Shown in pieces: positions 1 to 60,870 of a stretch of 60,870 nucleotides of DNA. The notes beneath the pieces are model-generated. The model searched no databases and had not been told where the DNA came from. It saw only the letters and a program-made list of their open reading frames with translations. A program made the translations under genes and the position numbers. This DNA is from an uncultured Clostridia bacterium (GTDB taxonomy: Bacteria; Bacillota; Clostridia; TANB77; CAG-508): contig CALXRZ010000003.1 in NCBI GenBank assembly GCA_944391015.1, positions 1-60,870 on the forward strand. Reading direction: 5' to 3'. How positions within the stretch are numbered: the first letter of the stretch is position 1; each line of letters starts with the position of its first letter.

Positions 1-3
1 ATT

Positions 4-44
4 AAAGCTCTCTAGTACGGTATTATACCTTACTAGAGAGCTTT
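4..44. terminator. Hairpin terminator after lemA
   Basis: A perfect 14-bp stem (arms 4-17 and 31-44) closes a 13-nt loop. It lies just beyond the lemA stop and has an A run and a T-rich tail, so it could end transcripts from either side. Confidence 0.8.
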
Positions 45-65
45 ATTTTAGCTATTTAAGTTTTT

Positions 66-692
66 TTACCCAAAATCGACCAAATTTGTACTGCTTGCCG
101 ACTCATCTGCTTTGAATGTTTCTATTTCTTCAAAGCCATAAATCTCTGCAAGAATACTTCCGGGGAAATGGCGTATTGTCCTATTGTATTCCGACACTTC
201 CTCGTTATAGGTTTCTCGAGCAATGGAAATCCGATTAACACTTCCTTCTATTTGGTCCATAAGACTAGTGTACTGTTCACTTGCAGTTAATTCAGGATTG
301 TCTTCCACAATAGAAATTAACCTATTAACTGCTGTTGTAAGGCTGTCATTAGCCTCACTAATTTGTTCCAAGTCTCCAGTATTAAAACTTTGTGCCAAGG
401 CTTCACGAGCATTTGTAATATCTTCAAATACTTGCTCCTCGTGCTTTGTATATGCTTTTACTGTAGAAACTAAATCAGGAATAAGTTCTAAACGCCTCTG
501 CATCATAGTTTCTACATTTGCTTCGGCATATGCAACATTCTCCTGCAAATCAACCAAATTGTTATAGGTAGAGATGAATGAGCCCACAACAGCGACTATT
601 CCCATTACAACAACCGTTAAAAAAGTAAAAAGGAAAACGGAGATTATCGTTATAAGTCTTTTGCTTTTTTCTTCATAACTGTTTTCGTTCAT
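66..692 (-). CDS. lemA: LemA family membrane protein
   Basis: LemA proteins are small membrane proteins of unclear function with one N-terminal helix and a long alpha-helical domain. Here a hydrophobic segment lies at about residues 15-40, followed by the family block with YNNLVDLQENVAYAEANVE and RLELIPDLVSTVKAY. I chose the ATG at 692 because it has a GGAGG five bases upstream; the longer frame from 707 has none. The next gene upstream is a TPM-domain protein, the usual partner of LemA, and the two form an operon. The length of about 208 residues is typical. The base composition is richer in G+C than most of the window. Confidence 0.93.
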   Translation of the reverse strand: MNENSYEEKSKRLITIISVFLFTFLTVVVMGIVAVVGSFISTYNNLVDLQENVAYAEANVETMMQRRLELIPDLVSTVKAYTKHEEQVFEDITNAREALAQSFNTGDLEQISEANDSLTTAVNRLISIVEDNPELTASEQYTSLMDQIEGSVNRISIARETYNEEVSEYNRTIRHFPGSILAEIYGFEEIETFKADESASSTNLVDFG

Positions 693-748
693 AAAGTATT
701 CCTCCAATAAATTATTCCTTTCAATTAACTGATGTTAAAACTACTGGC

Positions 749-2620
749 TTAAAAACCTCTTGATGCTCCACCTCCAGACGAATGACCTCCAAAGCCACCA
801 AAATGACTTCCACCACTAAAGCCACTAGAAGAGTTATGATGTGACGAATAGATAATATGCTCACGTTGTCTTTCCTCTTCTCTTCTTCTCTCTCTCCGTG
901 CGTGGTCGTCATCTGCTTCATTCTTAAACTTTCTCATCTGATTTAAGAGTTCAGCACTAAAATATGCTCTTTGCGCCATACTCAAATTATTATAGTACCT
1001 AAAAGCTTTAGAGATTTTATCTCTGTCGTCTTCATCTGCACTACTATGAATATGACCAATAGTCTGTTTAGCAGCTTCTTCTGCATTGCGAGCGGCATCA
1101 TAATTACGCTTATCTTCTTGCGCTTTCCTCAAAACAATCTCGTATTCTCGTAACATTTTATCATCAGGGAAAAACTCTTTTTGAGCATAAGTCAATTCTT
1201 CATAGAGCGAATACGCTTTATGCAAGGCATCATACTCTTCATAAGTTCCCTTTTGATTGTTATGATATACTTTAATCATTTCGTTATAGGCCTTTTGAGC
1301 TTCAGCTTTATCACGCAATTCTTGCTGCTCTTTTTCGTAAGCTTCGCGAAGCTTTACCGACTCTTGATATAATGCCCTTACTTTTGCAATGTCTGCTTTG
1401 ACATACTGCTGAGCTTTAATCTTTGCATCTTTCGGATTGAAAGTACTTTTGCTAAATGTGGAAATGTTATACTGCTGAGCTTTAGTTTCTGCATTATCAT
1501 ATGCTTTAATAGCATCTTCAAATACTTCAACATTGTCTTTGTCAGCAGGCATTCCCAGCACAGAATTAAGTTTCTGATCAATTACTCTTGCTTCAGCCAT
1601 AGCTTCAGCTTCGAGCATTTTTTTAACTTCTTTCTCAAAGTCTAATTCAGGATGCAATCTCCGAACTCTGCTATAGAATTCGTTGGTGCTTGCCAATCTT
1701 TCTGCAAGTGTTTTATTCGCCATTTCAAGTTTACTGTTGTCTTCCCTAAATGCCTCAACACATTCTTTAAGACTTAAACAACTTTTCTCCAATTCTTGTA
1801 TTTTCTTTGCTCCATTGTTATTACGCTCTTTTAATTTGCTATTTTCTTCAGATAATTTTCCATTATCTTCTTCAAGTTCATTTACTTGAGTTTTAAATTC
1901 ATTATATTTTTTCCAATATCTTACAAGCTGAATGATGTTAAGAACTATTGGAATGACAAATACCAATACAAACAAATAGCCAAACAACATATATTGCCAC
2001 TTATTTTGTTGTCCATTATTGACTTCGTCTCCGGTTGTAGGTGCAACTGCATCTGGTACTTCTGTTACATTCGAAGTCTCATTAGTACTACTCCAATCAA
2101 TAGGAACAACATTTCTTATTTCGGCAATTACAGCCTCTTGGACTGATTTTAAGCCTTCGGCAAACCTATCTTCCTTGAAATATTGCATTCCATAGTTATC
2201 AAGCAACTGCCCAGACTTAGAATCCGTAATATACGCTTGCATAGTTTTTCCTGTCTCAATTTTTACTTGTCTGTCTTCAACAGAAAGCAAAATTAAGATT
2301 CCCATACTATCTTTTCCAATTCCGTATTGCTCATACATAGAATAAGCATATTCCTCGATTTGATTGCCATTTAAACTATTTACTGTGGAAACAACTACTT
2401 GAATGCCGTCATACTCTTCTGCGAGTTTGACTGCATTTTCCATCATAACTTGCTTATCCTTTTCAGTAAAAAGATTGGCAAAATCATTGACGTAAAACTC
2501 GTCGGTTTGCTTTTCAACTTCTACATTGTACCTATTACTTCCAAAGGCAGTAAGGGATACTGTCATAAGCAGAAATGCAATGGCTAAAATAGTCCGCCAC
2601 AAATTACTTGTCCTTTTCAT
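749..2620 (-). CDS. TPM-domain membrane protein with coiled coil and Gly/Ser-rich tail
   Basis: A signal peptide is followed by a TPM (Psb32/YgcG-like) domain at about residues 30-180, with FVNDFANLF-like and GIQVVVSTVNSL segments, then a membrane helix near residue 215 and a long lysine/glutamate-rich coiled coil. The end is the GGSHFGGFGG-type tail, low in complexity and rich in Gly and Ser, typical of TPM proteins paired with LemA. The start at 2620 follows AGGAGG by five bases; the longer frame adds 14 residues without a binding site. At about 623 residues it is longer than usual, because of the coiled-coil insert. TPM domains may act in membrane protein quality control, but the exact job here is unknown. 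Confidence 0.88.
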   Translation of the reverse strand: MKRTSNLWRTILAIAFLLMTVSLTAFGSNRYNVEVEKQTDEFYVNDFANLFTEKDKQVMMENAVKLAEEYDGIQVVVSTVNSLNGNQIEEYAYSMYEQYGIGKDSMGILILLSVEDRQVKIETGKTMQAYITDSKSGQLLDNYGMQYFKEDRFAEGLKSVQEAVIAEIRNVVPIDWSSTNETSNVTEVPDAVAPTTGDEVNNGQQNKWQYMLFGYLFVLVFVIPIVLNIIQLVRYWKKYNEFKTQVNELEEDNGKLSEENSKLKERNNNGAKKIQELEKSCLSLKECVEAFREDNSKLEMANKTLAERLASTNEFYSRVRRLHPELDFEKEVKKMLEAEAMAEARVIDQKLNSVLGMPADKDNVEVFEDAIKAYDNAETKAQQYNISTFSKSTFNPKDAKIKAQQYVKADIAKVRALYQESVKLREAYEKEQQELRDKAEAQKAYNEMIKVYHNNQKGTYEEYDALHKAYSLYEELTYAQKEFFPDDKMLREYEIVLRKAQEDKRNYDAARNAEEAAKQTIGHIHSSADEDDRDKISKAFRYYNNLSMAQRAYFSAELLNQMRKFKNEADDDHARRERRREEERQREHIIYSSHHNSSSGFSGGSHFGGFGGHSSGGGASRGF

Positions 2621-2693
2621 AAAGTCCTCCTGTTGTTTTATGGGTTTATACTTACTTTTCAAAAACTTAAATAACCATCTCCTTTCAAATTAG

Positions 2694-2730
2694 AATAGGA
2701 TACTTAGCATAAAAATGCCTGTATCCTATT
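2694..2730. terminator. Hairpin between the rRNA methyltransferase and TPM genes
   Basis: Ten-base arms AATAGGATAC and GTATCCTATT enclose a 17-nt loop. It lies after the methyltransferase gene and before the TPM gene on the minus strand. The T-run is poor, so it could be a weak terminator or a leader hairpin. Confidence 0.4.
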
Positions 2731-2808
2731 TTAACATAAATTTACATAATTTTCAATATTTCTACTAAATATCTATACTAGCTTTTTGATTTTTTCACCA
2801 TATTATAT

Positions 2809-4167
2809 CTAATCTTTTAAACATAGCACTGCCACACACTCCACATTGCTCGTGAACGGGAACATATCTACCGGTTGAATCTCTTTTACTTCATATTTTG
2901 TCTCCATCATTTTTATATCTCTTACCATAGTTGCTGGATTACAGCTTACATAAACTAGTTTTTTTACTTCTAGTTCTAATATTTTGCCTATAGTTGTTTC
3001 ATCTAGTCCTCTTCTTGGCGGGTCTACAATAATTGCAGTAGGCTTAACATTTTTCACTTCTACTAATTCCTTAAAAGCCTTTTCTACATCTCCTGCAATA
3101 AATTCTATATTATCTACATTGTTCATTTTTGCATTTTCTTTTGCTGCCTCAACTGCCTCTTCTACAATTTCTATTCCATATACTTTCTTTACTTCGTTTG
3201 ATGCAAATATTCCTATTGTTCCTATTCCACAGTATAAGTCACAAAGTATATCATTTTTATCTAATTTTGCATAATCTATTGCCTTTTGGTATAACACCTC
3301 AGTTTGAATAGGGTTGGTTTGATAGAATGATTTTGCTGATATTTTAAATGTATAATTTCCTAATTTATCATATATAAAGCCATTACCATATAAAATAACA
3401 TCTTTTTCTCCCAGTATTACATTTGTGTTTTTATTATTTATGTTTTTTATAATTGTTTTTACATTTGGATATTTTTGAGTGATGTTGTTTACTAGCTCTG
3501 TTTCGTATTTTATATTATCTTCGTTTGTTACTATTACGCACATTATTTCATTTGTTTTAACTCCAATTTTTACAATAATATGCCTAATTGCCCCTTTTCT
3601 TGTGGTTTCATTATATATTGATATATGATTTTCTTTTATAAAGTTAAAAATTTCTTTTGCTACTTTTTCTGCTTCTTTGCTTTGTATTAAGCAATCTTGT
3701 ATTGGTACAATTTCGTGTGTTCTACTTGCAAATACTCCCATTACAGGTTTTCCATCTTTGTTTACACCTACCGGATATTGTAATTTGTTTCTGTAATTAT
3801 ATGGGCTTTTCATACCAATTACACCATTTACAGTTATTTTATTTTCTAAACTTTTATTTACTAAATTTTGTACCATATCTCTTTTTATTTTTAACGTTTC
3901 TTCATATTTTATATGTCTTAAGCTACAACCTCCACATCTTTTATATGTGGCACAATCAGGCTCTACTCTGTTCTCTGAGGCTTTTATTACTTCTAATAAC
4001 CTTCCAAATGCAAAAGTTTTGTTAACTTTTGTTATTACTATTTTACATATTTCTCCTTTTATTGCTCCTTTAATAAAAATAGTAAAATCATCTATTTTAG
4101 CTATTCCTTCGCCCTCATACCCATTGTCTATTATTTTAACTTTATATTCTTTATTTTTTTCTACCAA
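2809..4167 (-). CDS. 23S rRNA (uracil-5-)-methyltransferase, RlmD/RlmCD/TrmA family
   Basis: The protein transfers a methyl group from SAM to C5 of uridine in 23S rRNA or tRNA. It begins with a TRAM RNA-binding domain (YEGEGIAKIDDFTIFIKGA), followed by four cysteines of the iron-sulfur type (C-X5-CGGC and a later C). The C-terminal Rossmann methyltransferase has LCDLYCGIGTIGIF and VDPPRRGLD, and the catalytic cysteine in YVSCNPAT. The frame opens at 4203, but neither ATG (4203, 4176) has a usable binding site. A TTG at 4167 lies nine bases after AAAAGGA, so I prefer it. Firmicutes often carry several paralogues; which uridine is modified cannot be told from sequence alone. Confidence 0.9.
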   Translation of the reverse strand: MVEKNKEYKVKIIDNGYEGEGIAKIDDFTIFIKGAIKGEICKIVITKVNKTFAFGRLLEVIKASENRVEPDCATYKRCGGCSLRHIKYEETLKIKRDMVQNLVNKSLENKITVNGVIGMKSPYNYRNKLQYPVGVNKDGKPVMGVFASRTHEIVPIQDCLIQSKEAEKVAKEIFNFIKENHISIYNETTRKGAIRHIIVKIGVKTNEIMCVIVTNEDNIKYETELVNNITQKYPNVKTIIKNINNKNTNVILGEKDVILYGNGFIYDKLGNYTFKISAKSFYQTNPIQTEVLYQKAIDYAKLDKNDILCDLYCGIGTIGIFASNEVKKVYGIEIVEEAVEAAKENAKMNNVDNIEFIAGDVEKAFKELVEVKNVKPTAIIVDPPRRGLDETTIGKILELEVKKLVYVSCNPATMVRDIKMMETKYEVKEIQPVDMFPFTSNVECVAVLCLKD

Positions 4168-4216
4168 TATTCTCATTCCTTTTATATTGTAATCAGTTTG
4201 CACATTTGCAAGTTAT

Positions 4217-5065
4217 TTACTCTTCAAATATTTCGTCTCTATTTTTCTTTAGATTAAAATTAAATTTATAATAATATGGTTGAATATCTCCTACTTGATC
4301 TGCAAAATATATAAGATTGCCATCTTTGTCTTTAATTTTTAAGTTTGGAAATGTTCTAATCATTTTTCTATCATCCCAATATGTATTTATAAATTTTGCA
4401 AGTTTTTCGTTATTATATATTTTTTCGTATGCACTGTCTGCCCTTTCTTTATTTACTACAGGTAGGTTGTTTTCGTGAATTTTCCTTACAATAAAGTATT
4501 CCAAGGCATACCCTGTAAGTACAAAATCTATAAATAAAAATATTGTCACACCAAGTGTTATTATCTTTAATTTATTTACTGAAATTTTAGATTTAAGCCA
4601 ATTTATTAGTCTATCAACTCTAGGATTTATATATGACATTAAGTATATTGCTAAAAGCCCCCAGAAAATTGAGAAGAATACACATATTCTCCCATTCAAA
4701 TTTAGTGGCATATTTGAATAATCCCACCATTTTACATTTAGCGCTACCTCACCTATCCAGCTTACAACATACTCTATAATAGACCCTACAACAAATCCTC
4801 CCCAAAATAACCTATTACTATTTTGGTTAAAATATTGAAGGGATAATATCATTATTACTGCACCTAAGCCATAAATTCCACAAAATGGTCCATATAAAAA
4901 GCTTTGCCTACTTTCCCAAGTTCCTTTAGTAACAATTCCAAAAATTGTTTCTATAATGTAACCTAACACGCTATATATAATAAAATAAGCCAAAATTCTC
5001 CATATTGTGTAGCCAAAAATAGTTAATCTCTTTTTTTGTTTTGTTTGTTCTTTTACTTTTTCCAT
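4217..5065 (-). CDS. CmpB-like multi-pass membrane protein (PF06541 type)
   Basis: About six hydrophobic segments and the conserved block FLYGPFCGIYGLGAV, with a later WWDYSNMPLNLNGRI, place it in the 'putative ABC-transporter type IV' family (CmpB). Despite the name, no transport role has been shown that I can rely on. The C-terminal 90 residues are cytoplasmic and charged and are absent from the shorter paralogue at 59040-59657. AAGGAACG precedes the ATG. It ends 13 bases before the first ATG of the methyltransferase frame, so the two may be cotranscribed. Confidence 0.8.
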   Translation of the reverse strand: MEKVKEQTKQKKRLTIFGYTIWRILAYFIIYSVLGYIIETIFGIVTKGTWESRQSFLYGPFCGIYGLGAVIMILSLQYFNQNSNRLFWGGFVVGSIIEYVVSWIGEVALNVKWWDYSNMPLNLNGRICVFFSIFWGLLAIYLMSYINPRVDRLINWLKSKISVNKLKIITLGVTIFLFIDFVLTGYALEYFIVRKIHENNLPVVNKERADSAYEKIYNNEKLAKFINTYWDDRKMIRTFPNLKIKDKDGNLIYFADQVGDIQPYYYKFNFNLKKNRDEIFEE

Positions 5066-5180
5066 ATAAAATTACGTTCCTTTCTTGATTACGTATTGCG
5101 AAGTAAAAACCATATGTGGGACTTATTTACAATTTAATTTACAAGCTGTTTATTGTTTTTACATAAACGCATATTGACAA

Positions 5181-5225
5181 AATACTTTTTACAATTTAAG
5201 CCCGTCCCCAATTGTAAAAAGTATT
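5181..5225. repeat. Palindromic repeat with loop GGGGACGGGCTTA
   Basis: Two perfect 16-base arms (AATACTTTTTACAATT and its complement) flank a GC-rich 13-nt loop. A smaller relative lies at 7365-7390. The loop resembles the GGGGACAGG core of the repeats at 16675, 18432 and 56892. Confidence 0.6.
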
Positions 5226-5278
5226 ATACACTTTTTTATATATATTAGCAACACTTTTATTTCAATCTTTTTTTGATA

Positions 5279-5330
5279 AGTTACTGGATAATGGTGCTCA
5301 ATAAAATCTAGGCACTATTATCCAGTAACT
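5279..5330. repeat. Long inverted repeat, 19-bp stem
   Basis: Arms of 19 bases starting AGTTACTGGATAAT pair with one G-T wobble around a 14-nt loop. No T-run follows on either strand, so it is not a classic terminator. It may be a remnant of a small palindromic element or an RNA processing site after the cad operon. Confidence 0.5.
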
Positions 5331-5401
5331 TTGGTAAATCAAGCACGTCACAGCTTTTGCAAAAATTATTTTTATTATATTATTTTATAAAAGACCATAT
5401 T

Positions 5402-7345
5402 TTATGACTTGGTATGTAAAGCCCTTATTGCATTTAAAATAGCTAAAATCGATACTCCAACATCTGCAAATACTGCTTGCCACATTGTAGAAATGCCTAA
5501 AGCAGATAATATTAAAACTAGTATTTTTACTGCTATCGCAAATATAATATTTTCTTTCACAATTTTCATTGTCTTTTTTGATATTTGTATTGCGTTTATT
5601 ATTTTAGATGGCTCATCTGTCATTATTACAACGTCTGCTGCTTCTATGCTACTGTCTGCACCTATTCCTCCCATTGCAACTCCTATATCAGAAATTGCAA
5701 GTACTGGTGCATCGTTTATACCATCTCCAACAAAGATAAGTTTTCCTTTTTCTGATTTTGTTTTAAGTAATTCTTCTACCTTTGCCACTTTTTTATCTGG
5801 TAATAATTCTGTGTATACTGTATTTATTCCAATTTCTTTTGCCACTGCTTCTCCTACTTCTTTTTTATCACCTGTAAGCATTACAATTTGCTTTATATTA
5901 TTTCTTTTTAACTCTTCTATAGTCTTTTTTGCATCAGCTTTTATTGTATCTGATATTAAAATATGTCCTGCAAACTTTCCATCTATTGCAACATATAAGA
6001 TTGTTCCAATATCATTACATTTTGTAAATTCTATTTTCCTTTCATTCATTAGCTTTTCGTTTCCAACTAGTACGTTTTGTTTTCCTATTTGTGCTTCAAT
6101 TCCACGTCCAGATAGTTCTTGCGAGCTTATTATTTGACTTTCATCTATTTTCTTTCCATATGCTTTTTTTACAGATTTAGATATTGGATGGTTTGAATAA
6201 TTTTCTGCATATGCTGTTATTTTTAGTAGCTCCTCTTGGGTAATTTTATAATCCTGTATTCCAGCCCTTTCCACTTCATTATTCAAGCTTATACTTTCCC
6301 CTAAATTATTCTGTACAAAGCCTTTTGTTTCAATTTGGTTATCGGTTTTAGCCACTTCTACTTTTTGTACTTCAAACACACCTTCTGTTAAAGTTCCTGT
6401 TTTATCAAAAACAGCTATTTCCGTGCTGGCCAAAGCTTCTAGATAGTTGCTTCCTTTAACTAATATTCCAATTTTAGAAGCTCCTCCAATTCCTCCAAAA
6501 AAGCTTAATGGTATAGATATTACTAGTGCACAAGGACACGAAACCACTAAGAATGACAATGCTCTATATATCCAATCTTGAAAATTTGCTCCTTTCACAA
6601 TAAGTGGTGGAACTATTGCAAGTACAACTGCTATAATTACAACTGTTGGTGTATAATATCTTGCAAATTTAGTTATAAAGTTCTCAGATTTAGATTTTTT
6701 ACTACTAGCATTTTCCACTAAGTCTAGTATTTTACTTACAGTAGATTCTCCAAACTTTTTTGTTACCTCTACTTTTATTGTACCATTCAAATTGATACAA
6801 CCACTAAGTATATCTTCTCCTTTGCCTACTTCTCTTGGCAATGATTCTCCCGTTAATGCTTTTGTGTCTAATGTTGTATTTCCCTCAATTATACGTCCAT
6901 CTAATGGAACTTTTTCTCCAGGCTTTATTACGATGGTCTCTCCTATTTGCACTTCTTCCGGAGCTACTTTTTCTAAATTTCCGTTTCTATATGCATTCGC
7001 ATAGTCTGGTCTAATATCCATTAAACTTGCAATTGATTTTCTTGATTTATCAACTGCATAACCTTGAAATAGCTCTCCTATTTGGTAAAATAGCATAACT
7101 GCTACTGCCTCAGGAAATTCGCCTATTGCAAAAGCTCCAATGGTAGCAATAGCCATTAAAAAGTTCTCATCAAATATCTCTCCTTTAAAAATATTTTTTA
7201 TTGCATCTTTTATAATTTCAAAACCAACTATAATATAACTTACGATAAAAATCCCGTTATTTATCCAAACGTTTTCAAATTTAACTGCCATAGCAAATAT
7301 AAAAAGTATAAGAGCAATTATTATTTTTATTCCATCTTTCTTCAT
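5402..7345 (-). CDS. cadA: Cd2+/Zn2+/Pb2+-exporting P1B-type ATPase
   Basis: This is an integral membrane pump that uses ATP to export soft divalent metals. Visible motifs in order: the actuator TGES (ALTGESLPREVG), the metal-site CPC in VVSCPCALV, the phosphorylation site DKTGTLTEG, the HP-type nucleotide motif NHPISKSV, and the hinge GDGINDAPV. The sequence after CPC (SIPLSFFGGIGGASKIG) is typical of the Zn/Cd group. At 647 residues it lacks the N-terminal heavy-metal-binding domain common in CadA. It lies downstream of an ArsR-type regulator gene in the same orientation, 66 bases away, and is surely controlled by it. Confidence 0.95.
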   Translation of the reverse strand: MKKDGIKIIIALILFIFAMAVKFENVWINNGIFIVSYIIVGFEIIKDAIKNIFKGEIFDENFLMAIATIGAFAIGEFPEAVAVMLFYQIGELFQGYAVDKSRKSIASLMDIRPDYANAYRNGNLEKVAPEEVQIGETIVIKPGEKVPLDGRIIEGNTTLDTKALTGESLPREVGKGEDILSGCINLNGTIKVEVTKKFGESTVSKILDLVENASSKKSKSENFITKFARYYTPTVVIIAVVLAIVPPLIVKGANFQDWIYRALSFLVVSCPCALVISIPLSFFGGIGGASKIGILVKGSNYLEALASTEIAVFDKTGTLTEGVFEVQKVEVAKTDNQIETKGFVQNNLGESISLNNEVERAGIQDYKITQEELLKITAYAENYSNHPISKSVKKAYGKKIDESQIISSQELSGRGIEAQIGKQNVLVGNEKLMNERKIEFTKCNDIGTILYVAIDGKFAGHILISDTIKADAKKTIEELKRNNIKQIVMLTGDKKEVGEAVAKEIGINTVYTELLPDKKVAKVEELLKTKSEKGKLIFVGDGINDAPVLAISDIGVAMGGIGADSSIEAADVVIMTDEPSKIINAIQISKKTMKIVKENIIFAIAVKILVLILSALGISTMWQAVFADVGVSILAILNAIRALHTKS

Positions 7346-7364
7346 AATTCTTCCCTTCTTTTCA

Positions 7365-7390
7365 GCAATTATGGACGGGCCTAAATTGCA
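7365..7390. repeat. Small hairpin, loop core GGACGGGC
   Basis: GCAATT and AATTGC flank a loop containing GGACGGGCCC. It sits between the regulator and pump genes and shares its loop with the larger palindrome at 5181-5225. It could lower or separate pump expression, or may just be a repeat copy. Confidence 0.45.
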
Positions 7391-7411
7391 AATTTTATTT
7401 TTTGTTTTTAT

Positions 7412-7774
7412 CTATTTTTTATGTTCTATGTGCTCCATCGCTATTTCAAATACATATTTTACGTGTTCATCATCAAGCATATAGTACACCTCTTTGCCTT
7501 GTCTTCTACACTTTACTATTCCCATTCTTCTTAAAGTTCCTAATTGATGTGATATTGACGATTTACTCATTCCCAATACATTTGCTATATCACATACGCA
7601 CATTTCGTTTTCGTCCAATGCAAATAGTATTTTAGTTCTTGTTGTGTCACCTAATATTTTAAAGAATTCTGCTATTTTATTAAACGAGTCCTCATCAGGC
7701 ATCTGCTTTAAGGCTTTGTCTACTACATCTTGGTGGATAATGTTACAGTCACATATAAATTCATTCTTTGACAT
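7412..7774 (-). CDS. cadC: Metal-sensing repressor, ArsR/SmtB (CadC/CmtR) family
   Basis: This is a winged-helix DNA-binding repressor released by metal. The helix-turn-helix is at about residues 55-85 (CVCDIANVLGMSKSSISHQLGTLR), and the sequence EMCVCDIA is the ELCVC-type metal site of the alpha-3 family. Additional N-terminal cysteines (FICDCNII) could complete a CadC-like site. The end EHVKYVFEIAMEHIEH has histidines and glutamates that could form a second site. It is the first gene of the operon, before the P-type ATPase, and its promoter carries two inverted repeats of the expected type. Which metal is sensed (Cd, Pb, Zn) is inferred only. Confidence 0.93.
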   Translation of the reverse strand: MSKNEFICDCNIIHQDVVDKALKQMPDEDSFNKIAEFFKILGDTTRTKILFALDENEMCVCDIANVLGMSKSSISHQLGTLRRMGIVKCRRQGKEVYYMLDDEHVKYVFEIAMEHIEHKK

Positions 7775-7819
7775 TAGTTTTCCTCCTGTTCTATGAGTTT
7801 ATTATTTATATTGTTTTGA

Positions 7820-7877: not shown

Positions 7878-7915
7878 TAGATTTTGAAAAATATTTTTAT
7901 TATTTTAGCATTAAA

Positions 7916-8002: not shown

Positions 8003-8020
8003 AAAATTAAATATATTGTT

Positions 8021-8404: not shown

Positions 8405-8431
8405 TTTTCATTACCTCCTGTTTTTTTGTAT

Positions 8432-8921: not shown

Positions 8922-8925
8922 TTTT

Positions 8926-46139: not shown

Positions 46140-46147
46140 AATAAACA

Positions 46148-53069: not shown

Positions 53070-53816
53070 TTAGCTTATTTCTCTTAATTTATTGTATACT
53101 TCATAAGTTATTTCAACATCTTTTAATCCCCTATGGGCTCCCTCATAATTTATATTAAATAACTTAGCAAGTGTTCCAAGCTTGTGATTTATACTATTTG
53201 GCACCAATTTTCTAGCCAAATACAATGTATCTATGTAGTCATTGTTTAAATTGTAATTTAGATATTTTTTACATTTATTGCATAAAAAACCTAAATCAAA
53301 ATTTACATTATGACCAATAATAACATTATTACCTACAAATTTTATAAATTCCTCAAGTACAGTTTTAGGCATTTTGCCTGTAGCTAGCATATTATCGGTA
53401 ATTCCTGTAAGCTCTGTTATTTTTTGTGGTAAAATTCTATCTATTTTTATTAACTGGCTATATTCATCTATCATCTTATTGTTTTCCACTTTTATTGCAC
53501 CAATTTCGATAATATCATCATAAATTGGTGATAGTCCAGTAGTTTCAATGTCAACCAATACGTAATTGTCAATAAATCTATTTAAGTTTTTCCCAGCTTG
53601 ATCTGTTGACTGAGCAACATTGCTTCTTTTTATTCCACCAGTTTTGAATATTACATTGCTTTTTTGCTTTGTCGAAGCATTGTTATTTATGGCATTATTA
53701 CTTTCATTTTGTGCATCTGCTAGCATATCAAAACTAATTTGCGAATTTTCTTCTGCTTTTTGTGCTTCTTGTTTTTTTCTTCTATTATTATTTATAAAAA
53801 TAAATTTATTATACAT
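53070..53816 (-). CDS. DnaQ-like 3'-5' exonuclease
   Basis: A DEDDh exonuclease like the epsilon-type domain of PolC. ExoI is VLVDIETTGLSPIYDDIIEIGA, ExoII is VIIGHNVNFDLGFL, ExoIII is GAHRGLKDVEITYEVYN. The first 80 residues are charged and unlike known domains. Possible roles are proofreading or DNA repair. It has its own transcript between the cohesin gene and the FGE-like fragment. Confidence 0.9.
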   Translation of the reverse strand: MYNKFIFINNNRRKKQEAQKAEENSQISFDMLADAQNESNNAINNNASTKQKSNVIFKTGGIKRSNVAQSTDQAGKNLNRFIDNYVLVDIETTGLSPIYDDIIEIGAIKVENNKMIDEYSQLIKIDRILPQKITELTGITDNMLATGKMPKTVLEEFIKFVGNNVIIGHNVNFDLGFLCNKCKKYLNYNLNNDYIDTLYLARKLVPNSINHKLGTLAKLFNINYEGAHRGLKDVEITYEVYNKLREIS

Positions 53817-53984
53817 ATTTTACTCCATCTATTGTTATTTGCTATGTTAATTTTTTATAGTACTTTTGTAATTTTTTTACTTGTGTAACATAGTGGAATA
53901 AATTTTAACACATTTATTTTTGTTTTGCAATTTAATTTTGAGATTATATTAAGAATTTTTTTAAGTTTACTCTATTTATTAGTT

Positions 53985-54926
53985 TTACTCTAAGTATAGA
54001 GTTAAGCGGAATGAAACAGCGCGGTATTCATTATAATTTGAATCGGAAGCAAATTTATAACGATATGTTGTGTAGCCGACACTATCTCCACAATACCCTC
54101 CTCTACTTACACAAGGAAAAACTCTGTAGTTACCAGCATAGCTATAATAACTAGAATATTCTGTTGTCATTTCTGTACAATTTGCTGCTATATCATTTAT
54201 TTTGCATACTTCATCCAATCCTGTCCCAGTATTAGCTAAATTACTGTTAATTGAATTTCCTATTTTATTTGCATAATTAGTATTTCCTGCTTCTTGTATA
54301 TACACTATTGCTGTATCCCAGGCATAGCTATTCATTAAATCACTCTTTATACCATTAGAACTATCTTCATAAGTATTTAGTGCTACCTTTGATGCATTTA
54401 ATTGTGTAATGAAGTTCCATAATGTTCCCGGTGTATACGACATACTGTCTCCTGAAAAGCCTTTTGATACTTTTGATGATGCCTTATAGTTTGCTATGTT
54501 ACTTCCACTAGCATAACTTGCTTCATATCTTCCTATATAATATCCTCCATTTTCTTTTACACTATTTACCCACGCCTCTAAATTATATGCTGTTGCATTT
54601 TGTCCATCTTCCCAATTGCTATTTATTCCTTCTCGATATGTTGATAACTCACTATAATATGAATCTATTACTACAGTATTTTTGTAATTTTCTGGTTTTT
54701 CTTCTGTATAGGCTGCTTGTTGTAATGTTGGTGTTCCATTTGATGTATTAAAAGTATATCTTCCTAGCACTATCTCATTGCTCTCTGTTCCATCATCTTT
54801 TGTAAACTTTCCTACAGGTATCCATACATATTGACTTCCTCTTACATTTACATCTTCTGAAAATGCATCCTCTATTACTATTCCTTGTTGCACTGTATCT
54901 CCAGAATCTTCTGCTATTTTAAAACC
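53985..54926 (-). pseudogene. FGE/sulfatase-modifying-like surface protein, 5'-truncated
   Basis: The C-terminal region (VSRGGYCGDSVGYTTYRYKFASD, AVSFRLTLYLE) and the start SQYVWIPVGKFTKDDGT are those of the formylglycine-generating-enzyme-like fold used in surface and phage-tail proteins of Clostridia. The frame continues upstream of the first ATG (GFKIAEDSGDTV) until a TAG at 54927, without a start or binding site. The N-terminus, often a prepilin-like or membrane segment, is missing. The break meets the small XRE gene head-to-head. Confidence 0.65.
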
Positions 54927-54960
54927 CTAAAGAATAAAACAATTATTAAAAGAAAATAAT

Positions 54961-55140
54961 ATGAAACTTTATGATTTATCTAAAGCTGCTGGAGTATCTT
55001 TGCCTACTATATCTGATTTTTTAAAGAATGATACTAAAAATTTAAGAATGGATACAATGTTGCACATCTGCGAAGCTTTTGGCATAACTTTAAAAGATTT
55101 CTTTGATAATCCCCTTTTTGATGATGTTATTTCAGAATAA
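54961..55140 (+). CDS. Small XRE-family HTH protein, possibly 5'-truncated
   Basis: The 59-residue frame has a Cro/C1-type helix-turn-helix: LYDLSKAAGVSLPTISDFL, then MDTMLHICEAFGITLKDFF. The frame stays open upstream (RIKQLLKENN, the usual start of helix 1) to a TAA at 54929, suggesting that a few residues and the original start were lost where it meets the FGE-like fragment. The ATG here has only a weak site (AAAAGAAAA). Probably a DNA-binding regulator; no target known. Confidence 0.65.
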   Translation: MKLYDLSKAAGVSLPTISDFLKNDTKNLRMDTMLHICEAFGITLKDFFDNPLFDDVISE

Positions 55141-55162
55141 TTTTTATTAACTATAATTATAA

Positions 55163-55211
55163 AAAAGAATATCTAGTTGAAAACTAAATTATTTCAGCTA
55201 GATATTCTTTT
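55163..55211. terminator. Convergent terminator between the XRE gene and sigK
   Basis: Fourteen-base arms AAAAGAATATCTAG and CTAGATATTCTTTT close a 21-nt loop, with A and T runs. Confidence 0.85.
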
Positions 55212-55213
55212 CT

Positions 55214-55927
55214 CTATTCCTTAAACTCCTTTGCAAGCTTTCCTATTGCCTTTGTTTCTATTCTCGACACATACGAACGCGATATTCCCATCATTTCTGC
55301 TATCTCGTGTTGCGTTTTTGGTTTTGTTCCTTTAAGTCCAAATCTTAACTCTATTATTGACTTTTCTCTGTCCTTTAACACTTCTTTCATTTTATTATAT
55401 AATTTTTTTATTTTAAACTTTAAGTCCACTTCTTCCTCAATACTTCTCTCATCATTTTCTAAAACTTCTTGAAGTGTAACCGTATTATCATCCTTATCTT
55501 TTCCTATTGGATCTTCTAAGTACACCTCTGCATTAAGCTTTTTTGAGCTTCTTAGATACATCAATATTTCATTATCTATGCATCTTGCTACATAAGTGGC
55601 AAGCCTTACCCCTTTAGTTGCTTCAAAACTATTTATACCTTTAATCAATCCTATTGTGCCTATTGAAATCAAATCGTCTTGTTCTGCTTTTGCTGTAGTA
55701 TATTTTTTGCAAATATGAGCAACTAGCCTTAAATTTCTTTCAATCAATATATTACGTGCCTCTTCGCTTCCCTCTTTCATTTGTTCCAAATACATTTTCT
55801 CATCTTCTGCCGATAATGGTTCTGGAAATAAGTTATTACTTGATATATATCCTAATAAAAACACAGCTGATTTTAAAAATTCTATAAAAGTTATGGCTCC
55901 TAAGCCTCCACAAAATGCAGTAAACAT
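55214..55927 (-). CDS. sigK: RNA polymerase sporulation sigma factor K
   Basis: The late mother-cell sigma factor for spore coat and lysis. It begins with a hydrophobic pro-sequence (AITFIEFLKSAVFLLGYI) that keeps it inactive until processed; then region 2 (RNLRLVAHICKKYTTAKAEQDDLISIGTIGL with TYVARCIDNEILMYLR) and region 4 (TQHEIAEMMGISRSYVSRIE). The ATG at 55927 follows GGAGGTG. The gene is whole, without the skin-type element that interrupts it in some species. A SpoIVFB-type protease should exist elsewhere. Confidence 0.95.
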   Translation of the reverse strand: MFTAFCGGLGAITFIEFLKSAVFLLGYISSNNLFPEPLSAEDEKMYLEQMKEGSEEARNILIERNLRLVAHICKKYTTAKAEQDDLISIGTIGLIKGINSFEATKGVRLATYVARCIDNEILMYLRSSKKLNAEVYLEDPIGKDKDDNTVTLQEVLENDERSIEEEVDLKFKIKKLYNKMKEVLKDREKSIIELRFGLKGTKPKTQHEIAEMMGISRSYVSRIETKAIGKLAKEFKE

Positions 55928-56096
55928 AAATGCACCTCCGACTTTCTTATACATAAATTATATGTGTAACAAAGTCAAAAGTGCCTGACCTTTAAAATAT
56001 TAAGCTGTACTATTTTTTCCTTTTCTTGAATAGTAATTTAGTGATAATAATATAAAAAGTTGTGGTCTATCCAAATTTACTAAGGAGTGAATAGTT

Positions 56097-56892
56097 TTGA
56101 GTAGAATATTTGATTTTTTTATAGGAATATTGCTTGGTGCTGGTGCAATATTACCAGGAGTTAGTAGTGGCGTTATTTGCGTTATTTTAGGTATGTACGA
56201 TAAACTGATTGATGCTATATTTAATTTATTTAAAAATTTTAAAAAAAATTTTTTATATTTGCTTCCTATTGGTTTAGGTGGTATTATTGGTGTATTTTTA
56301 TTTGGCAATATATTAAAAACACTTTTTTCTACCTTTCCAACTCAGACTAGTTTTTGCTTTATTGGTCTTATATTAGGTAGTATTCCTCTGTTAGTTAAAA
56401 AAGTGAATTCCGAACATACTTTTAAGTTAAGATATGTTCTGTTTACAGTTATATCATTTATATTAGGATGCTTTTTAGTGATTTTTGAAAATAGATTAAA
56501 CTTATCTAATGATGTAAGTAACTTTTCGTTTTTATTTCTTGTTATATCTGGGCTTTTAATGGCTATCGGAGTAGTATTTCCCGGTGTTAGTAACACTTTA
56601 ATTTTGATGTGTCTGCGGAGTTTATGCTACATATTTAGATGGCGTAGCAAATATAAATTTAAGCATTTTAATACCTATGGGAATTGGTCTTGTATTAGGC
56701 TCAGCATTTTTTTTGGTAATTATGAAGTTGTTGTTAAAACATTTTTATATGCAGACTTATTATTCTATAATAGGTTTTACACTTGGTAGTGTATTAGTAC
56801 TGTATAGTCCAATTTCATTTAACTTAGTAGGTATAGCTTCTGTTCTATGCTTTATAATTGGTTTTAAGCTTGCTACCAGGCTTTCGGGGTAA
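56097..56892 (+). pseudogene. DUF368 (PopT-like) membrane transporter, frameshifted
   Basis: DUF368 proteins (PopT) recycle undecaprenyl phosphate across the membrane. The start is a TTG after AAGGAGTGA: IFDFFIGILLGAGAILPGVSSG is diagnostic, and a repeat of the PGVS motif is at VVFPGVSNTLILM. The frame breaks near 56610-56620: one extra base within CTGCGGAG turns the expected GVYATYLDGVANINLSI into nonsense; the rest continues in the second frame up to the stop at 56892. It is either inactive or a sequencing error. Other members could replace it. Confidence 0.8.
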
Positions 56893-56918
56893 CCTGTCAC
56901 AAAAGTGCCATTTGTCAT
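56892..56918. repeat. Partial copy of the dispersed palindrome
   Basis: ACCTGTCACAAAAGTGCC then TTTGTCATTTTTTT, half of the repeat seen at 16675 and 18432. It ends both the DUF368 gene and the U32 gene and may serve as terminator. Confidence 0.55.
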
Positions 56919-58192
56919 TTTTTTCTTCTTAATATCCAGCCCTTTTCACATTTTATAGGTAATTTCATTTTTATGCTTTGTCCAGCTTTTCCCGGATTAA
57001 CACAATCTACTTCCTCACTTGTTTCTGTATCCCATAATTTTTCTATTTTGAATTCCACTGGTGTTATTTGGCTTGGTATTAGTATTTCCATTGTGTCCCC
57101 AACTTTTAATTTGTTTCTAATTTCTATTATATATTTTATACCTTTTTCTTCTGTATTATCATTTTGTTCAAACTTTGTATTCTCCATTGAATCAATTCCG
57201 ACTACTTTTCCGCCAAATTCATAATCTGGGTTGTATTGTTTTCCATCGTATTCTTGGAAATCTTTGTTGTTTCTATCATTAAAGTAAAATGTTGTAAGTC
57301 CTCTTGTTTTTGTTTTTTCTAATTCTTTTAAGTATTTTGTATAATCGTATTTTTCTGGCTCCTTCATATAATCATTTATGGCATTTCTATATGCATTTAC
57401 TACACTAGCTAAATAGTACTCAGTTTTTAGTCTTCCCTCTATTTTTAAGCTATCTATTCCCATTTCAATTATTTCTGGTATTTCTTTTATTAAGCATAAG
57501 TCTTTTGACGAAAATATGTATGTTCCTTTTTCGTCGTGTTCTACTGGCATTAGGTTTCCCGGTTTGTTATGCTCTTCTACATATACGTTGTATGCCCATC
57601 TGCAACTTTGCGCACAGTCTCCAAGGTTTGCACTTCTTGATGCTAAGAAATCACTTAAAAAACATCTACCTGAGTATCCAAAACATATTGCTCCGTGAAC
57701 AAACATTTCCACTTCTAAGTCTTTTGGTTTGTGTTCCATTATTTGTCTAATTTGCTCTTTGTTCATTTCTCTTCCGAGTATTACTCTTTTTGCTCCGTTT
57801 TTGTACCAAAAGTTAGCTGAGTGATAACTTACAATATTTGCCTGTGTGCTTATGTGTATATCCACATCAGGAGCATATTCTTTTAAGATGTCTATTACTC
57901 CTCCATCTGATGCAATAATACCGTCTACTTTCATCTCGTTTAACATTTTAGCTTGCTTTTTTATTTCTTCATAATACTCATCCCAAGCATATATGTTTAT
58001 AGCGGCATATACTTTTTTACCTATGCTATGTGCATATTTTATTGTTTTTGCCAAATCGTCGTCATCTACTTCTGCTCTACTTCTTAAAGATAAACTTCCT
58101 GTTCCACAATATACTGCATCTGCTCCATACATAAATGCTGTTTTGGCTTTTTCAAATGACCCTGCTGGTGCTAATAATTCTGGTTTTTTCAT
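56915..58192 (-). CDS. trhP: U32 family tRNA hydroxylation protein TrhP
   Basis: The start KKPELLAPAGSFEKAKTAF and centre EMFVHGAICFGYSGRCFLSD with GDCAQSCRW are the U32 signature; the cysteines C-x6-C, C-x3-C can bind an iron-sulfur cluster. Members such as TrhP (YrrO) hydroxylate U34 of tRNA to ho5U using prephenate. The ATG at 58192 follows AAAGGGAT. A SAM O-methyltransferase of the TrmR type, which makes mo5U from ho5U, lies only 2 kb away (60168). In Bacillus the genes are adjacent. I infer that these form the same pathway. Confidence 0.88.
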   Translation of the reverse strand: MKKPELLAPAGSFEKAKTAFMYGADAVYCGTGSLSLRSRAEVDDDDLAKTIKYAHSIGKKVYAAINIYAWDEYYEEIKKQAKMLNEMKVDGIIASDGGVIDILKEYAPDVDIHISTQANIVSYHSANFWYKNGAKRVILGREMNKEQIRQIMEHKPKDLEVEMFVHGAICFGYSGRCFLSDFLASRSANLGDCAQSCRWAYNVYVEEHNKPGNLMPVEHDEKGTYIFSSKDLCLIKEIPEIIEMGIDSLKIEGRLKTEYYLASVVNAYRNAINDYMKEPEKYDYTKYLKELEKTKTRGLTTFYFNDRNNKDFQEYDGKQYNPDYEFGGKVVGIDSMENTKFEQNDNTEEKGIKYIIEIRNKLKVGDTMEILIPSQITPVEFKIEKLWDTETSEEVDCVNPGKAGQSIKMKLPIKCEKGWILRRKK

Positions 58193-58354
58193 TTTAAATA
58201 CCATCCCTTTCTTGCTTCATTCAAAGGTAACACATAGTTATAAAAGATATTTCTTTCAAACTATAATTCGTCCTTTCCATATTTTAAATCTAATTATTTT
58301 AGCTTTTTTCTACATAGCTTACAGTATTTAACTATATAGATAATTTATTTTTAC

Positions 58355-58864
58355 TTATTTAAGTCTATCATCAAAATATCCACTAATTTCTTCTAAATTT
58401 TCAAAATTTCTTTGTCTTAGTATGTCATATGCAACTATTGCAACTGAGTTTGATAAATTTAAAGAGCGAAGTGTTGGTCTCATTGGAATTCTAATTGTTT
58501 TATCAATATATTTTAACAATATGTCTTCTGGAAGACCTTTTGTTTCTTTTCCAAATAGTGCAAATACTTCGTCCATTTTAGAATAGTCTGGCTCAGAATA
58601 TACGTGCTTCCCTTTAGTTGTAACAAAGAACATATTATGGTTTTCTGGCTTATATTTTTCAAGAAATTTTTCAAATGACATATGTTCTTCTATTTCTAAT
58701 TTATCCCAATAATCAAGTCCTGCTCTTTTTACTGCTTTCTCCGTTATTTTAAAGCCTAGTGGATGTACTAAATGTAGCTTTGCGCCAAGTGCAGCACAAG
58801 TCCTTGCAATGTTTCCTGTATTTTGAGGTATTTCTGGTTCTACTAAAACTATATTTAATTTCAT
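58355..58864 (-). CDS. trmL: tRNA (cytidine(34)-2'-O)-methyltransferase TrmL
   Basis: A SPOUT-fold methyltransferase for the wobble 2'-O position of tRNA-Leu isoacceptors. Motifs: NIVLVEPEIPQNTGNIARTCAA, then ALFGKETKGLPEDIL and IPMRPTLRSLNLSNSVAIVAYD forming the knot. It is 169 residues long, as expected. It lies between two other wobble-position tRNA modification genes, trhP and trmR, so this end of the window gathers three such enzymes. Confidence 0.94.
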   Translation of the reverse strand: MKLNIVLVEPEIPQNTGNIARTCAALGAKLHLVHPLGFKITEKAVKRAGLDYWDKLEIEEHMSFEKFLEKYKPENHNMFFVTTKGKHVYSEPDYSKMDEVFALFGKETKGLPEDILLKYIDKTIRIPMRPTLRSLNLSNSVAIVAYDILRQRNFENLEEISGYFDDRLK

Positions 58865-59039
58865 TAAAATTTCAATTCCTTTCTTTTTTATCAGTGCCTC
58901 ATTATTATACTACAAAATTCGACTTGTTACAATCCTTTACTTGTTGTTTAATTGTTCTTTCGTTACTGGACTTTTCTTAATATAGTTTACTTTTTGCCCA
59001 TTTTCTGGTATTATATATATTGTAGAAAGGGATGTATTT

Positions 59040-59657
59040 ATGAAAAATAGTATTAAATCGCAATCAAATGATAAAGCTTTAAATAATACAAATATAAAAT
59101 TAGCTAATTCATCAAATGCTGTTATAACAAAAAAGAAACTACCTAGAGTTTACTTGTATTTTATATATTTTATTGTGTTTGCTTTTATTGGATGGCTTAT
59201 AGAAACAGCTTTTAGCTATTACTCTCTTGGTCACTTTACTAAAAGAGGCTTTTTGTATGGCCCACTTTGCCCAATATACGGCTGGGGTGCTATTATACTT
59301 ATTATGTTTTTTAGCACTTATAAGAAAAAAAATTTAAAACTTTTTGTGTACTCAGCTATTATTTTTACACTATTTGAGTATTTAGTAAGTTTTGGTATGG
59401 AAGCGCTATTTTCTTTAAAATGGTGGGATTATACTGAAGAATTTATGAATTTGAATGGTAGAGTTAGTATTTTTTATTCTTTTGCTTGGGGAATTATTGC
59501 AATATTAGTTATAAACTTTATTTATCCTTTTTTTAAAAAGAAAATAAATATAATACTTTCAAAAATACCTTATAGTATTCAAATTACTATTGTTTATGTG
59601 CTTTTTGCTATATTTGTAACAGATACGGTTCTATCTTTTATAAGATATTTGGTATAA
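59040..59657 (+). CDS. CmpB-like membrane protein, short paralogue
   Basis: Shares with the gene at 4217 the blocks IGWLIETAFSYYSLGHFTKRG, FLYGPLCPIYGWGA and LKWWDYTEEFMNLNGRVS, in a multi-pass protein of 205 residues. It has a polar N-terminal 35 residues and lacks the long C-terminal tail. The putative ABC-transporter type IV (PF06541) family has no clear function. AAAGGGATG precedes the ATG. Divergent from trmL, with a common intergenic region. Confidence 0.8.
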   Translation: MKNSIKSQSNDKALNNTNIKLANSSNAVITKKKLPRVYLYFIYFIVFAFIGWLIETAFSYYSLGHFTKRGFLYGPLCPIYGWGAIILIMFFSTYKKKNLKLFVYSAIIFTLFEYLVSFGMEALFSLKWWDYTEEFMNLNGRVSIFYSFAWGIIAILVINFIYPFFKKKINIILSKIPYSIQITIVYVLFAIFVTDTVLSFIRYLV

Positions 59658-59672
59658 TTTTCAAAATGTATC

Positions 59673-59701
59673 TAGACATTTGTCATAAAAAGAGTTATAA
59701 T
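59673..59701 (+). promoter_or_regulatory. Promoter of the 119-residue cassette gene
   Basis: TAGACA (59673-59678) and perfect TATAAT (59696-59701) are 17 bases apart and lie about 40 bases before the GGAGG. Confidence 0.65.
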
Positions 59702-59756
59702 AGTTTTATGTAAAATTATTTTACACAAAACTATTTTTTTAATGGAGGAAAATCTT

Positions 59757-60113
59757 ATGACAGTCAAAACTTACGGAGAGAATATGTCCAATTGGGATTC
59801 CGAGGCAGATGCACGGTATTTCAGGCGCCAGTTCGACAGAGCTCTGGAGAGGAAAGATTATCCTCGGCTGGAGGAGTTAATCGAAGAAGGCAGACGGTAC
59901 AACTACCCGATGCCTGCTACTGATGATGTGAACGTGCTTGAGATGAAAGCAGATGCTTTCATGAATAGCTTTAGGTGGGCAGAAATCCACCATAACTATT
60001 CAGACATCGTCAAACTGTTCCACGAGGCAATTAAGGATGGTTATCCCATCCCTGCTCCGAGGAACCCCATTGTAATGAGTCTCATTATCGGACTCATGAG
60101 CTTTAGTAAGTAA
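59757..60113 (+). CDS. Small unknown protein, single-gene cassette
   Basis: I do not recognise this protein of about 118 residues. It is soluble and helical, with two similar halves: YPRLEELIEEGRRYNYPMPA and YSDIVKLFHEAIKDGYPIPA look like a helical pair repeated, as in TPR- or ankyrin-like repeats. The ATG at 59757 lies eight bases after GGAGG; the frame start at 59742 overlaps that site. It is much richer in G+C than its surroundings, has two CATG sites, its own promoter and terminator. Recent transfer is likely. Confidence 0.7.
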   Translation: MTVKTYGENMSNWDSEADARYFRRQFDRALERKDYPRLEELIEEGRRYNYPMPATDDVNVLEMKADAFMNSFRWAEIHHNYSDIVKLFHEAIKDGYPIPAPRNPIVMSLIIGLMSFSK

Positions 60114-60122
60114 AAACCTCCC

Positions 60123-60148
60123 CCCCAGAGATGCAATATTCTCTGGGG
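60123..60148 (+). terminator. Strong terminator after the cassette gene
   Basis: CCCCAGAGA and TCTCTGGGG form a GC-rich 9-bp stem, followed by CTTCTTATTTAT. Confidence 0.85.
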
Positions 60149-60167
60149 CTTCTTATTTATACTTCTT

Positions 60168-60770
60168 CTAGTAATCAGCTCTTCTAGCAATTGCTAAGCC
60201 GTCTCCTACTTCTAAAACTCTAACGTCAAATTCTTTATTTTCTTGTAGTTCATCTAATTCTTTTAAAAATTCTCTTAAGTTTCTTACTGCTGTACGCTGT
60301 TTATGTTTATTGTAATCGCTTAGTACATAGCCTTTATATAAAACATTGTCTGCAAATATTATTCCGTTTGTTGCAAGCATTCGCAATGCTTCTTTTAAAA
60401 AAAATGGATATTTTCCTTTTGATGCATCTATAAATACCATATCATATTTTTCGTTTAATGTTGGTAGTATTTCAACTGCATCACCTTGTATAATATTTAT
60501 TTTTTCCTCTACTTCTGCTCTTTTTATATTTTCCTTCGCTTCTATTACTCGCTCTTCTTCTCTTTCTATTGTGTCTATTTTTCCGTTTTCTGCCAAAAAT
60601 TCTGAAAAGCAGATTGCAGAGTATCCAACAGCTGTACCAATTTCCAATATTTTCTTTGGTCTAAATAGTTTTAATTCTTCTTCTATAACAGCTAGTGTGT
60701 CGTCCATTATTATTGGAATGTGGTCTTCTAATGCTTTTGATTTTATTTTTTCTAGTTCTTTTCTATTCAT
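60168..60770 (-). CDS. trmR: O-methyltransferase, tRNA ho5U-methyltransferase TrmR (YrrM) type
   Basis: A class I SAM methyltransferase of the catechol-O-methyltransferase family: ILEIGTAVGYSAICFSEFL is motif I, DTIEREEERVIEAKENI binds the SAM ribose, DMVFIDASKGKYPFF has the metal-binding Asp, and IFADNVLYKGYV supplies the further metal ligands. TrmR methylates ho5U34 in tRNA to mo5U, after TrhP. The neighbouring trhP supports this role. The ATG at 60770 follows AAAGGGATG at good spacing. Catechol or other small substrates remain possible. Confidence 0.85.
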   Translation of the reverse strand: MNRKELEKIKSKALEDHIPIIMDDTLAVIEEELKLFRPKKILEIGTAVGYSAICFSEFLAENGKIDTIEREEERVIEAKENIKRAEVEEKINIIQGDAVEILPTLNEKYDMVFIDASKGKYPFFLKEALRMLATNGIIFADNVLYKGYVLSDYNKHKQRTAVRNLREFLKELDELQENKEFDVRVLEVGDGLAIARRADY

Positions 60771-60870
60771 TTTAAATTTCATCCCTTTCTCGCTTTGGTT
60801 TTGTCAAAAGTTTTCTAGTAAAAACCTTTGTAAACCTTGTTTTTTCTATAAAAATTATAAAAACTTGATA

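Follow-up and report, generated by a model that had tools for sequence, protein, structure and literature searches.

The stretch under study (the window) is the entire contig CALXRZ010000003.1, 60,870 nucleotides long and numbered C3 here, of the draft genome of an uncultured Clostridia bacterium of the lineage CAG-508 (GCA_944391015.1; G000 below; 1,512,174 bases in 83 contigs, 84.91% complete). It carries two long stretches of native DNA, with recJ, relA/spoT and tRNA genes, and between them an accessory island, and it is nearly devoid of the tetranucleotide CATG. By a second-order Markov estimate 132.3 sites are expected and 21 were observed; over positions 1-22,100 and 36,601-59,700 taken together the count was 2 against 98.6 (Poisson P for two or fewer, 7e-40), and both retained sites sit within tRNA genes (Table 1). 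A first-pass annotation, made from the letters alone, had put the expectation at about 2.5 sites per kb, close to our zero-order estimate of 2.44 per kb, and had proposed that CATG is avoided in native but not in accessory DNA, with more than 100 sites missing; the counts bear out both the avoidance and the size of the deficit. Its positions are correct to within one base, the lone tRNA-Glu site lying at 20490 rather than 20489, while the lone tRNA-Leu site and the single sites at 35473, 36056, 59960, and 60095 are where it had placed them. The island does contain sites, as claimed, and is not depleted to an equal degree, the numbers being 15 rather than about 13 for the island and 8 rather than 7 for its PolC-like gene. 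The codon choices singled out in that annotation were recovered also: the DHHEP motif of recJ is spelled GAC CAT CAC GAA CCA, and histidine codons preceding G in relA are uniformly CAC. What it had missed is that in the window GATC falls almost as far below expectation as CATG (15 observed against 83.5 expected), and that ATTAAT, TCTAGA, and GATATC are likewise avoided in the genome sample (see below).

The deficit extends well beyond this contig. In 22 further stretches of G000 (406,440 bases) CATG occurred 99 times against 1049 expected (0.09), the lowest value among the 16 four-letter palindromes, and in the whole genome the hexamer CATGAA was counted 64 times against 1027 for its reversed-letter control, nowhere near a ratio of one. 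A two-state model applied to 472,369 bases (the 22 stretches, the window, and contig C69; 31% of the genome) separated native DNA (396,365 bases), in which 24 of 1001 expected sites are present (2.4%), from island DNA (76,004 bases), in which 89 are present against 199 expected. This split was cut on CATG alone and its CATG contrast is circular; the behavior of other words across it, and the window coordinates drawn by the first-pass annotation, are independent. One island was counted twice, because 19.4 kb are common to two contigs (C4:1-20000 and C20:1-20000; loci L034 and L045) at 99.1% identity, either through assembly strain redundancy or as a doubled element. CATG in G000 is under-represented against Markov expectation, in native DNA, and beyond the level of its relatives (see below), and as such is a case of Type II site avoidance by a host genome. 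Site avoidance as such is already known; Gelfand and Koonin reportedly described it in 1997 for Type II recognition sites in host genomes.

Table 1. Features of the 60,870-nucleotide window, with observed and expected tetranucleotide counts where available.
Feature	Position	Strand	Remarks	Source
Native stretch	1..22100	none	CATG 1 against 48.8 expected; GATC 3 against 29.5	
Native stretch	36601..59700	none	CATG 1 against 49.8 expected; GATC 3 against 28.8	
tRNA-Glu (ctc)	20444..20518	+	retained CATG at 20490	
tRNA-Leu (caa)	45820..45902	-	retained CATG at 45847	
Accessory island	22101..32800	none	G+C 24%; CATG 15 against 22.5 expected	genes by Pfam, PADLOC
PolC-like gene	22128..24416	-	PHP, DNA_pol3_alpha and finger domains; 8 CATG	Pfam
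AAA ATPase with lid domain	24492..26063	-	IetA-like matches weak	Pfam, PADLOC
Protein with DnaB-type helicase C-terminal domain	26182..26985	-		Pfam
WYL-domain protein	28621..29610	-		Pfam, PADLOC
DUF2779 protein	31218..32714	-	CATG at 32240	Pfam
267-residue open reading frame	35561..36364	+	no Pfam family; CATG at 36056	
123-residue open reading frame	59742..60113	+	no Pfam family; CATG at 59960 and 60095	
recJ	14906..16591	-	DHH, RecJ_OB; DHHEP spelled without CATG	Pfam
relA/spoT	12593..14830	-	HD_4, RelA_SpoT, ACT_4; histidine before G is CAC in 5 of 5	Pfam

The route by which CATG was lost is visible in codon usage, for which 222 native G000 frames were set against 395 frames from congeners other than G012 (frames taken mechanically, at least 200 residues). 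Histidine is encoded by CAT in 2.8% of cases before G in native G000, compared with 71% before other bases and 87.7% before G in congeners; NCN codons end in A in 1.8% of cases before TG (57% before other T; 47.4% before TG in congeners); and NNY codons end in C in 0.1% of cases before ATG (24% before other AT; 15.7% before ATG in congeners). The histidine and methionine contents of the two sets are near-equal. CATG has been removed by synonymous codon swaps in all three phases, and this purge, together with near-equal histidine and methionine content, shows that selection acts on DNA words rather than on protein.

Relatives of G000 put this purge in context. Stretches were sampled from 36 genomes, of which 35 were readable (22 congeners and 13 more distant relatives); the sample of G014 was masked with N entirely, those of G001, G003, G006, and G015 by half, that of G020 over 12,000 of 40,000 bases, and those of G025 and G026 in small part, and values for masked relatives rest on less sequence. 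Observed-to-expected ratios for CATG lie between 0.49 and 0.85 in 21 of the 22 readable congeners and at 0.11 in G012; pooled, with G012 included, the congeners stand at 0.60. The genes common to G012 and G000 were too few to place the former as a sister of the latter by protein identity. Among the more distant relatives 11 of 13 fall between 0.41 and 1.04, and G030 has 0.25 in its sample together with a whole-genome hexamer ratio of 0.65; the zero count in G026 (30 expected, 15 kb of short contigs) was disregarded, as the whole-genome count of G026 is normal. Across 287 genomes of the order the whole-genome ratio of CATGAA to its reversed-letter control has a median of 0.83, and five genomes are outliers (G040, 0.022; G190, 0.041; G000, 0.062; G012, 0.080; G111, 0.159), the next value being 0.295. 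ACGT is nearly gone from the samples of G008 (none against 27 expected) and G009 (1 against 9), and is a further lineage-specific avoided palindrome within the genus.

Several palindromes are avoided in G000, CATG being the extreme case. Observed-to-expected ratios in native and island DNA, respectively, are 0.12 and 0.72 for ATTAAT, 0.19 and 0.61 for TCTAGA, 0.18 and 0.49 for GATC, and 0.27 and 0.50 for GATATC. ATTAAT depletion (220 against 1380 control counts in G000, or 0.16) is confined to G000 among the 19 genomes counted, the other 18 ranging from 0.70 to 1.95; a species-specific avoidance of GATC was rejected, as this word is low in most sampled relatives. On contig C2 of G000 (locus L221) an Eco57I-type methyltransferase is followed by a BsuBI/PstI-family endonuclease, adjoining a gene that by eye resembles secA. 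This system has four other carriers among the 287 genomes (G092, G295, G051, and G069), and was rejected as the cause of ATTAAT loss, given that these keep ATTAAT at 1.2-1.95 times control; CTGCAG stands at 0.71 in G000, practically as in congeners (0.72), and the system seems to have neither ATTAAT nor an avoided CTGCAG as its site. Elsewhere in G000 (contig C47, L224), an 839-residue protein combines a C5-cytosine methyltransferase with an Eco57I-type methyltransferase domain, and the next gene encodes a protein of at least 310 residues, truncated by the locus edge, with no Pfam family.

The proposal that CATG density serves as a clock for recent gene arrival holds only roughly. CATG-bearing stretches contain phage-like, surface-protein, and defense-like genes, in addition to segments with fbp, uvrB-like, and groEL-like genes; seven of ten CATG-bearing island genes outside the window have a Pfam family, namely a SpaA-repeat surface protein, a DUF2142 membrane protein, a phage-type lysozyme, RhuM, and those same three. 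The fbp, uvrB-like, and groEL-like segments (L036, 3762-9419; L037, 6904-8538) carry CATG in otherwise CATG-poor contigs, and look as if replaced through recombination; the uvrB-like gene has 501 residues, its N-terminal part being missing from the frame read. Since CATG occurs in these housekeeping segments, it marks not only new genes but also DNA that was replaced or has recombined, and its density marks DNA that has spent a short time under the purge, replaced housekeeping genes included, beyond accessory genes.

A search for a CATG methyltransferase, as the first-pass annotation had recommended, led outside the window to contig C24 of G000 (271-2650), where a D12 adenine methyltransferase gene (352 residues) adjoins a gene for a 369-residue protein, both open. 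The methyltransferase is the single G000 match in a PF02086 search of 37 genomes (E = 5.8e-42), and is 75-76% identical to that of G040 and 56% identical to that of G051, both of which carry an HNH endonuclease of the family ICEA (PF05315). Its neighbor matches Pfam EVE below threshold (17.4 against a cut-off of 23 bits). In its AlphaFold2 model (mean predicted local distance difference test score, 83) Foldseek ranks EVE-type proteins highest, PH1033 and THYN1 among them, followed by YTH domains, so the protein is predicted to contain an EVE/YTH-like reader fold; a weak structural resemblance to NucS/EndoMS (2vld, 5gke; Foldseek E about 4e-3) probably concerns its C-terminal half, and no NucS/EndoMS match came out when PDB chains were searched by sequence. 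E224, D265, E282-x-K284, Q295, and Y299 are invariant in all ten aligned homologs (L185 and L192, with broken genes, and L183, on the same contig as L162, were omitted), and these we take to be putative PD-(D/E)XK-like catalytic residues. We accordingly read the protein as an EVE reader fused to a predicted PD-(D/E)XK-like nuclease (EVE-nuclease below). The surroundings of the pair hold one CATG in 20 kb, located inside the methyltransferase gene, and so the pair looks like an old resident.

The two genes recur together elsewhere. Among the 287 genomes of the order the EVE-nuclease is present only in G000 and G040, both of them CATGAA outliers (hypergeometric P = 2.4e-4); in G040 EVE-nuclease, ICEA (E = 1e-69), and methyltransferase form one gene cluster, and CATG is the lowest four-letter palindrome (0.07). 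One scan of an 84,980-species genome collection, which covers only stretches matching two peptide patterns and will have missed more distant relatives, gave 11 EVE-nuclease loci, one being the G040 contig, in taxa that include Bacilli, Clostridia, Eubacterium, Soehngenia, Alphaproteobacteria, and Mucispirillum. Searches of phages, plasmids, and viral contigs for the EVE-nuclease were negative. At all 11 loci the EVE gene has, within a few kb, a methyltransferase that shows 45-76% identity to the G000 enzyme, which makes 12 of 12 EVE-nuclease genomes when G000 is included. ICEA is present in eight of these 12 and was not found in G000, G305, G311, and G312; the EVE gene is broken in G305 and G312 and open in G311. 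At six of seven loci inspected the cluster contains a second methyltransferase-like gene. Such genes, with an HPPYWDI motif, were seen in the CATG cassettes L182, L184, L186, L187, L189, L191, and L166, and both of those tested (L184 and L166, one of which is from G051) have PF01555.

We consider it probable that a Type II restriction-modification system of the NlaIII/IceA type, long resident in this lineage, purged CATG from the resident genome through selection against self-cutting. Such a system would methylate the site to C-m6A-TG (m6A, N6-methyladenine; CmATG below) and cut unmethylated CATG, and long residence would turn self-cutting into loss of CATG from resident DNA. The C24 methyltransferase may be the enzyme that makes CmATG; the rank of CATG as the most avoided of 16 palindromes bears on this predicted specificity only indirectly. 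The EVE-nuclease, judging by its domains, most likely gives the cassette a second restriction arm, one that senses modification. In favor of this account, the purge is genome-wide, affects all codon phases, is common to only one of 22 readable congeners (G012), and is relaxed in islands. CATG stands at 0.07, 0.14, 0.34, 0.42, 0.58, 0.58, 0.61, and 0.67 of expectation in the eight carriers of both ICEA and EVE-nuclease, against 0.80, 0.85, and 1.31 in the three carriers of EVE-nuclease and methyltransferase without ICEA (G000 excluded), in a comparison that spans unrelated taxa, samples of 17-56 kb, and unmatched backgrounds. The long-term selection invoked by the first-pass annotation is well supported, and a related D12 methyltransferase exists, but protein and family searches of the 84.91% complete G000 assembly gave no ICEA match, an absence that incompleteness of the assembly keeps from being final. 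The endonuclease may have been lost, or may lie in sequence that the assembly lacks; a loss would have been recent on the timescale at which CATG sites return. The avoidance in G000 may be a relic for that reason. According to Rusinov et al. (2015; PMC4687349), avoidance tracks orthodox Type II systems, grows with residence, and can outlast them, which fits a CATG cutter that was long resident and then lately lost or left unassembled.

Several observations weigh against this account, beginning with the missing endonuclease itself: an ICEA remnant beside the EVE gene was sought and rejected, none being seen in the spacer between EVE-nuclease and methyltransferase or in the 270 bases that precede the EVE gene up to the contig end. 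The ICEA carriers from outside the order do not all convince: CATG ranks second lowest of the 16 palindromes in G302 and G306, but only fourth to ninth lowest in G304, G307, G308, G309, and G310. G051 has the methyltransferase, ICEA, and the second methyltransferase, and yet a whole-genome CATGAA ratio of 1.42; it has no EVE match, CATG stands at 0.54 in 22 kb of its short contigs, and the pattern is as for a recent arrival of the cassette. In G221, whose ICEA relative is distant (30% identity), the ratio is about 1.9 (1033 against 548). The outliers G012, G190, and G111 have no match to EVE-nuclease, methyltransferase, or ICEA. Possession of any methyltransferase relative was rejected as a predictor of CATG loss, as the 43 genomes with any match, close ones too, are unshifted relative to the other 244 (P = 0.31). 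Further afield, CATG is the densest motif in Helicobacter pylori, although M.HpyI occurs in all of its genomes (PMC10423294).

These observations leave some room for other explanations. That another CATG restriction system, since lost or outside the assembly, made the purge, with the C24 pair unrelated in specificity, is in our judgment unlikely, despite the three of five depleted genomes that lack a match to the pair, and despite the strong avoidance of ATTAAT in G000; no system has been identified for that word, and lost or unseen systems have therefore probably acted in this genome. Both EVE carriers among the 287 genomes are CATG outliers, however, and the close relative of the C24 methyltransferase in G040 is clustered with ICEA in a genome itself depleted of CATG. 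We are more doubtful still of the EVE-nuclease as an active endonuclease that enforces avoidance by itself, ICEA being dispensable. G000 has only the EVE-nuclease and the methyltransferase, both open and embedded in CATG-poor DNA, and the putative catalytic residues are conserved throughout the alignment; against this, G311 combines an open EVE-nuclease and methyltransferase with CATG at 0.85 and no ICEA found, and the broken EVE genes of G305 and G312, likewise with no ICEA found, suggest that the EVE gene, left by itself, does not last. An origin without any restriction system, in mutation or repair bias, codon usage, or tRNA supply, is very improbable. Low counts of some four-letter words are found in many genomes across the order (GATC, for example, ranges from 0.04 to 1.0 in sampled relatives), and a restriction system was not identified for each GATC-low relative, but codon choice in G000 is purged in three phases only where the codon pair spells CATG, the congeners pooled are far less affected, and a genome-wide mutation bias would not long spare the islands of the same genome. 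An artefact of a single window, or of the eye that scanned it, can be practically dismissed, given that other G000 contigs and the whole-genome hexamer count repeat the deficit.

The NlaIII/IceA-type system that we favor has known counterparts. The iceA1 product of H. pylori is 52% identical to R.NlaIII (PMC2749054); M.HpyI targets CATG as part of the iceA system, the endonuclease of which is often absent (PMC10423294). Like NlaIII and HpyI (iceA1-hpyIM), the clusters of the relatives pair a D12-class methyltransferase with ICEA, and the avoided word is CATG; unlike them, these clusters add the EVE-nuclease and often a second methyltransferase, G000 has yielded no ICEA, and H. pylori keeps CATG dense where G000 has lost it. 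Under-represented palindromes have been tied to resident or lost restriction-modification systems (PMC4687349), but G000 is extreme in the near-completeness of the loss from native DNA and in the sharp contrast between native DNA and islands. Bell et al. (PMC7641849) list an EVE-PD(D/E)XK architecture among predicted modification-dependent (Type IV) endonucleases, with the same domain order as here, EVE and then a PD-(D/E)XK-like nuclease; the names NlaIII, ICEA, and NucS do not occur in the main text of that paper. The EVE gene here differs in its constant proximity to a Type II-like D12 methyltransferase, and its modification dependence is a prediction. It resembles NucS/EndoMS in the weak fold match and in the conserved D, E-x-K, and QxxxY residues, whereas its N-terminal half has an EVE/YTH-like fold. 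We found no report in the open-access literature that ties EVE-PD(D/E)XK nucleases to NlaIII/ICEA cassettes.

It is conceivable, if speculative, that the cassettes of several phyla have a built-in second arm, in which an EVE/YTH-like reader fused to a PD-(D/E)XK-like nuclease senses modified DNA or CmATG, and that in G000, with the CATG cutter gone, this arm and the methyltransferase have persisted and may still police CATG via the methyl mark. A phage could then not evade the CATG cutter just by modifying its DNA. More broadly, avoidance in G000 is nearly complete, differs between resident and incoming DNA, and can be compared with the state of close relatives that show it or lack it. Word avoidance of this kind can serve, roughly, to tell which DNA is resident and which has come in, and to suggest what sites uncharacterized systems recognize. 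The repeated presence of an EVE-nuclease close to such methyltransferases suggests that a nuclease which senses modification and a classical Type II system can be parts of one module.

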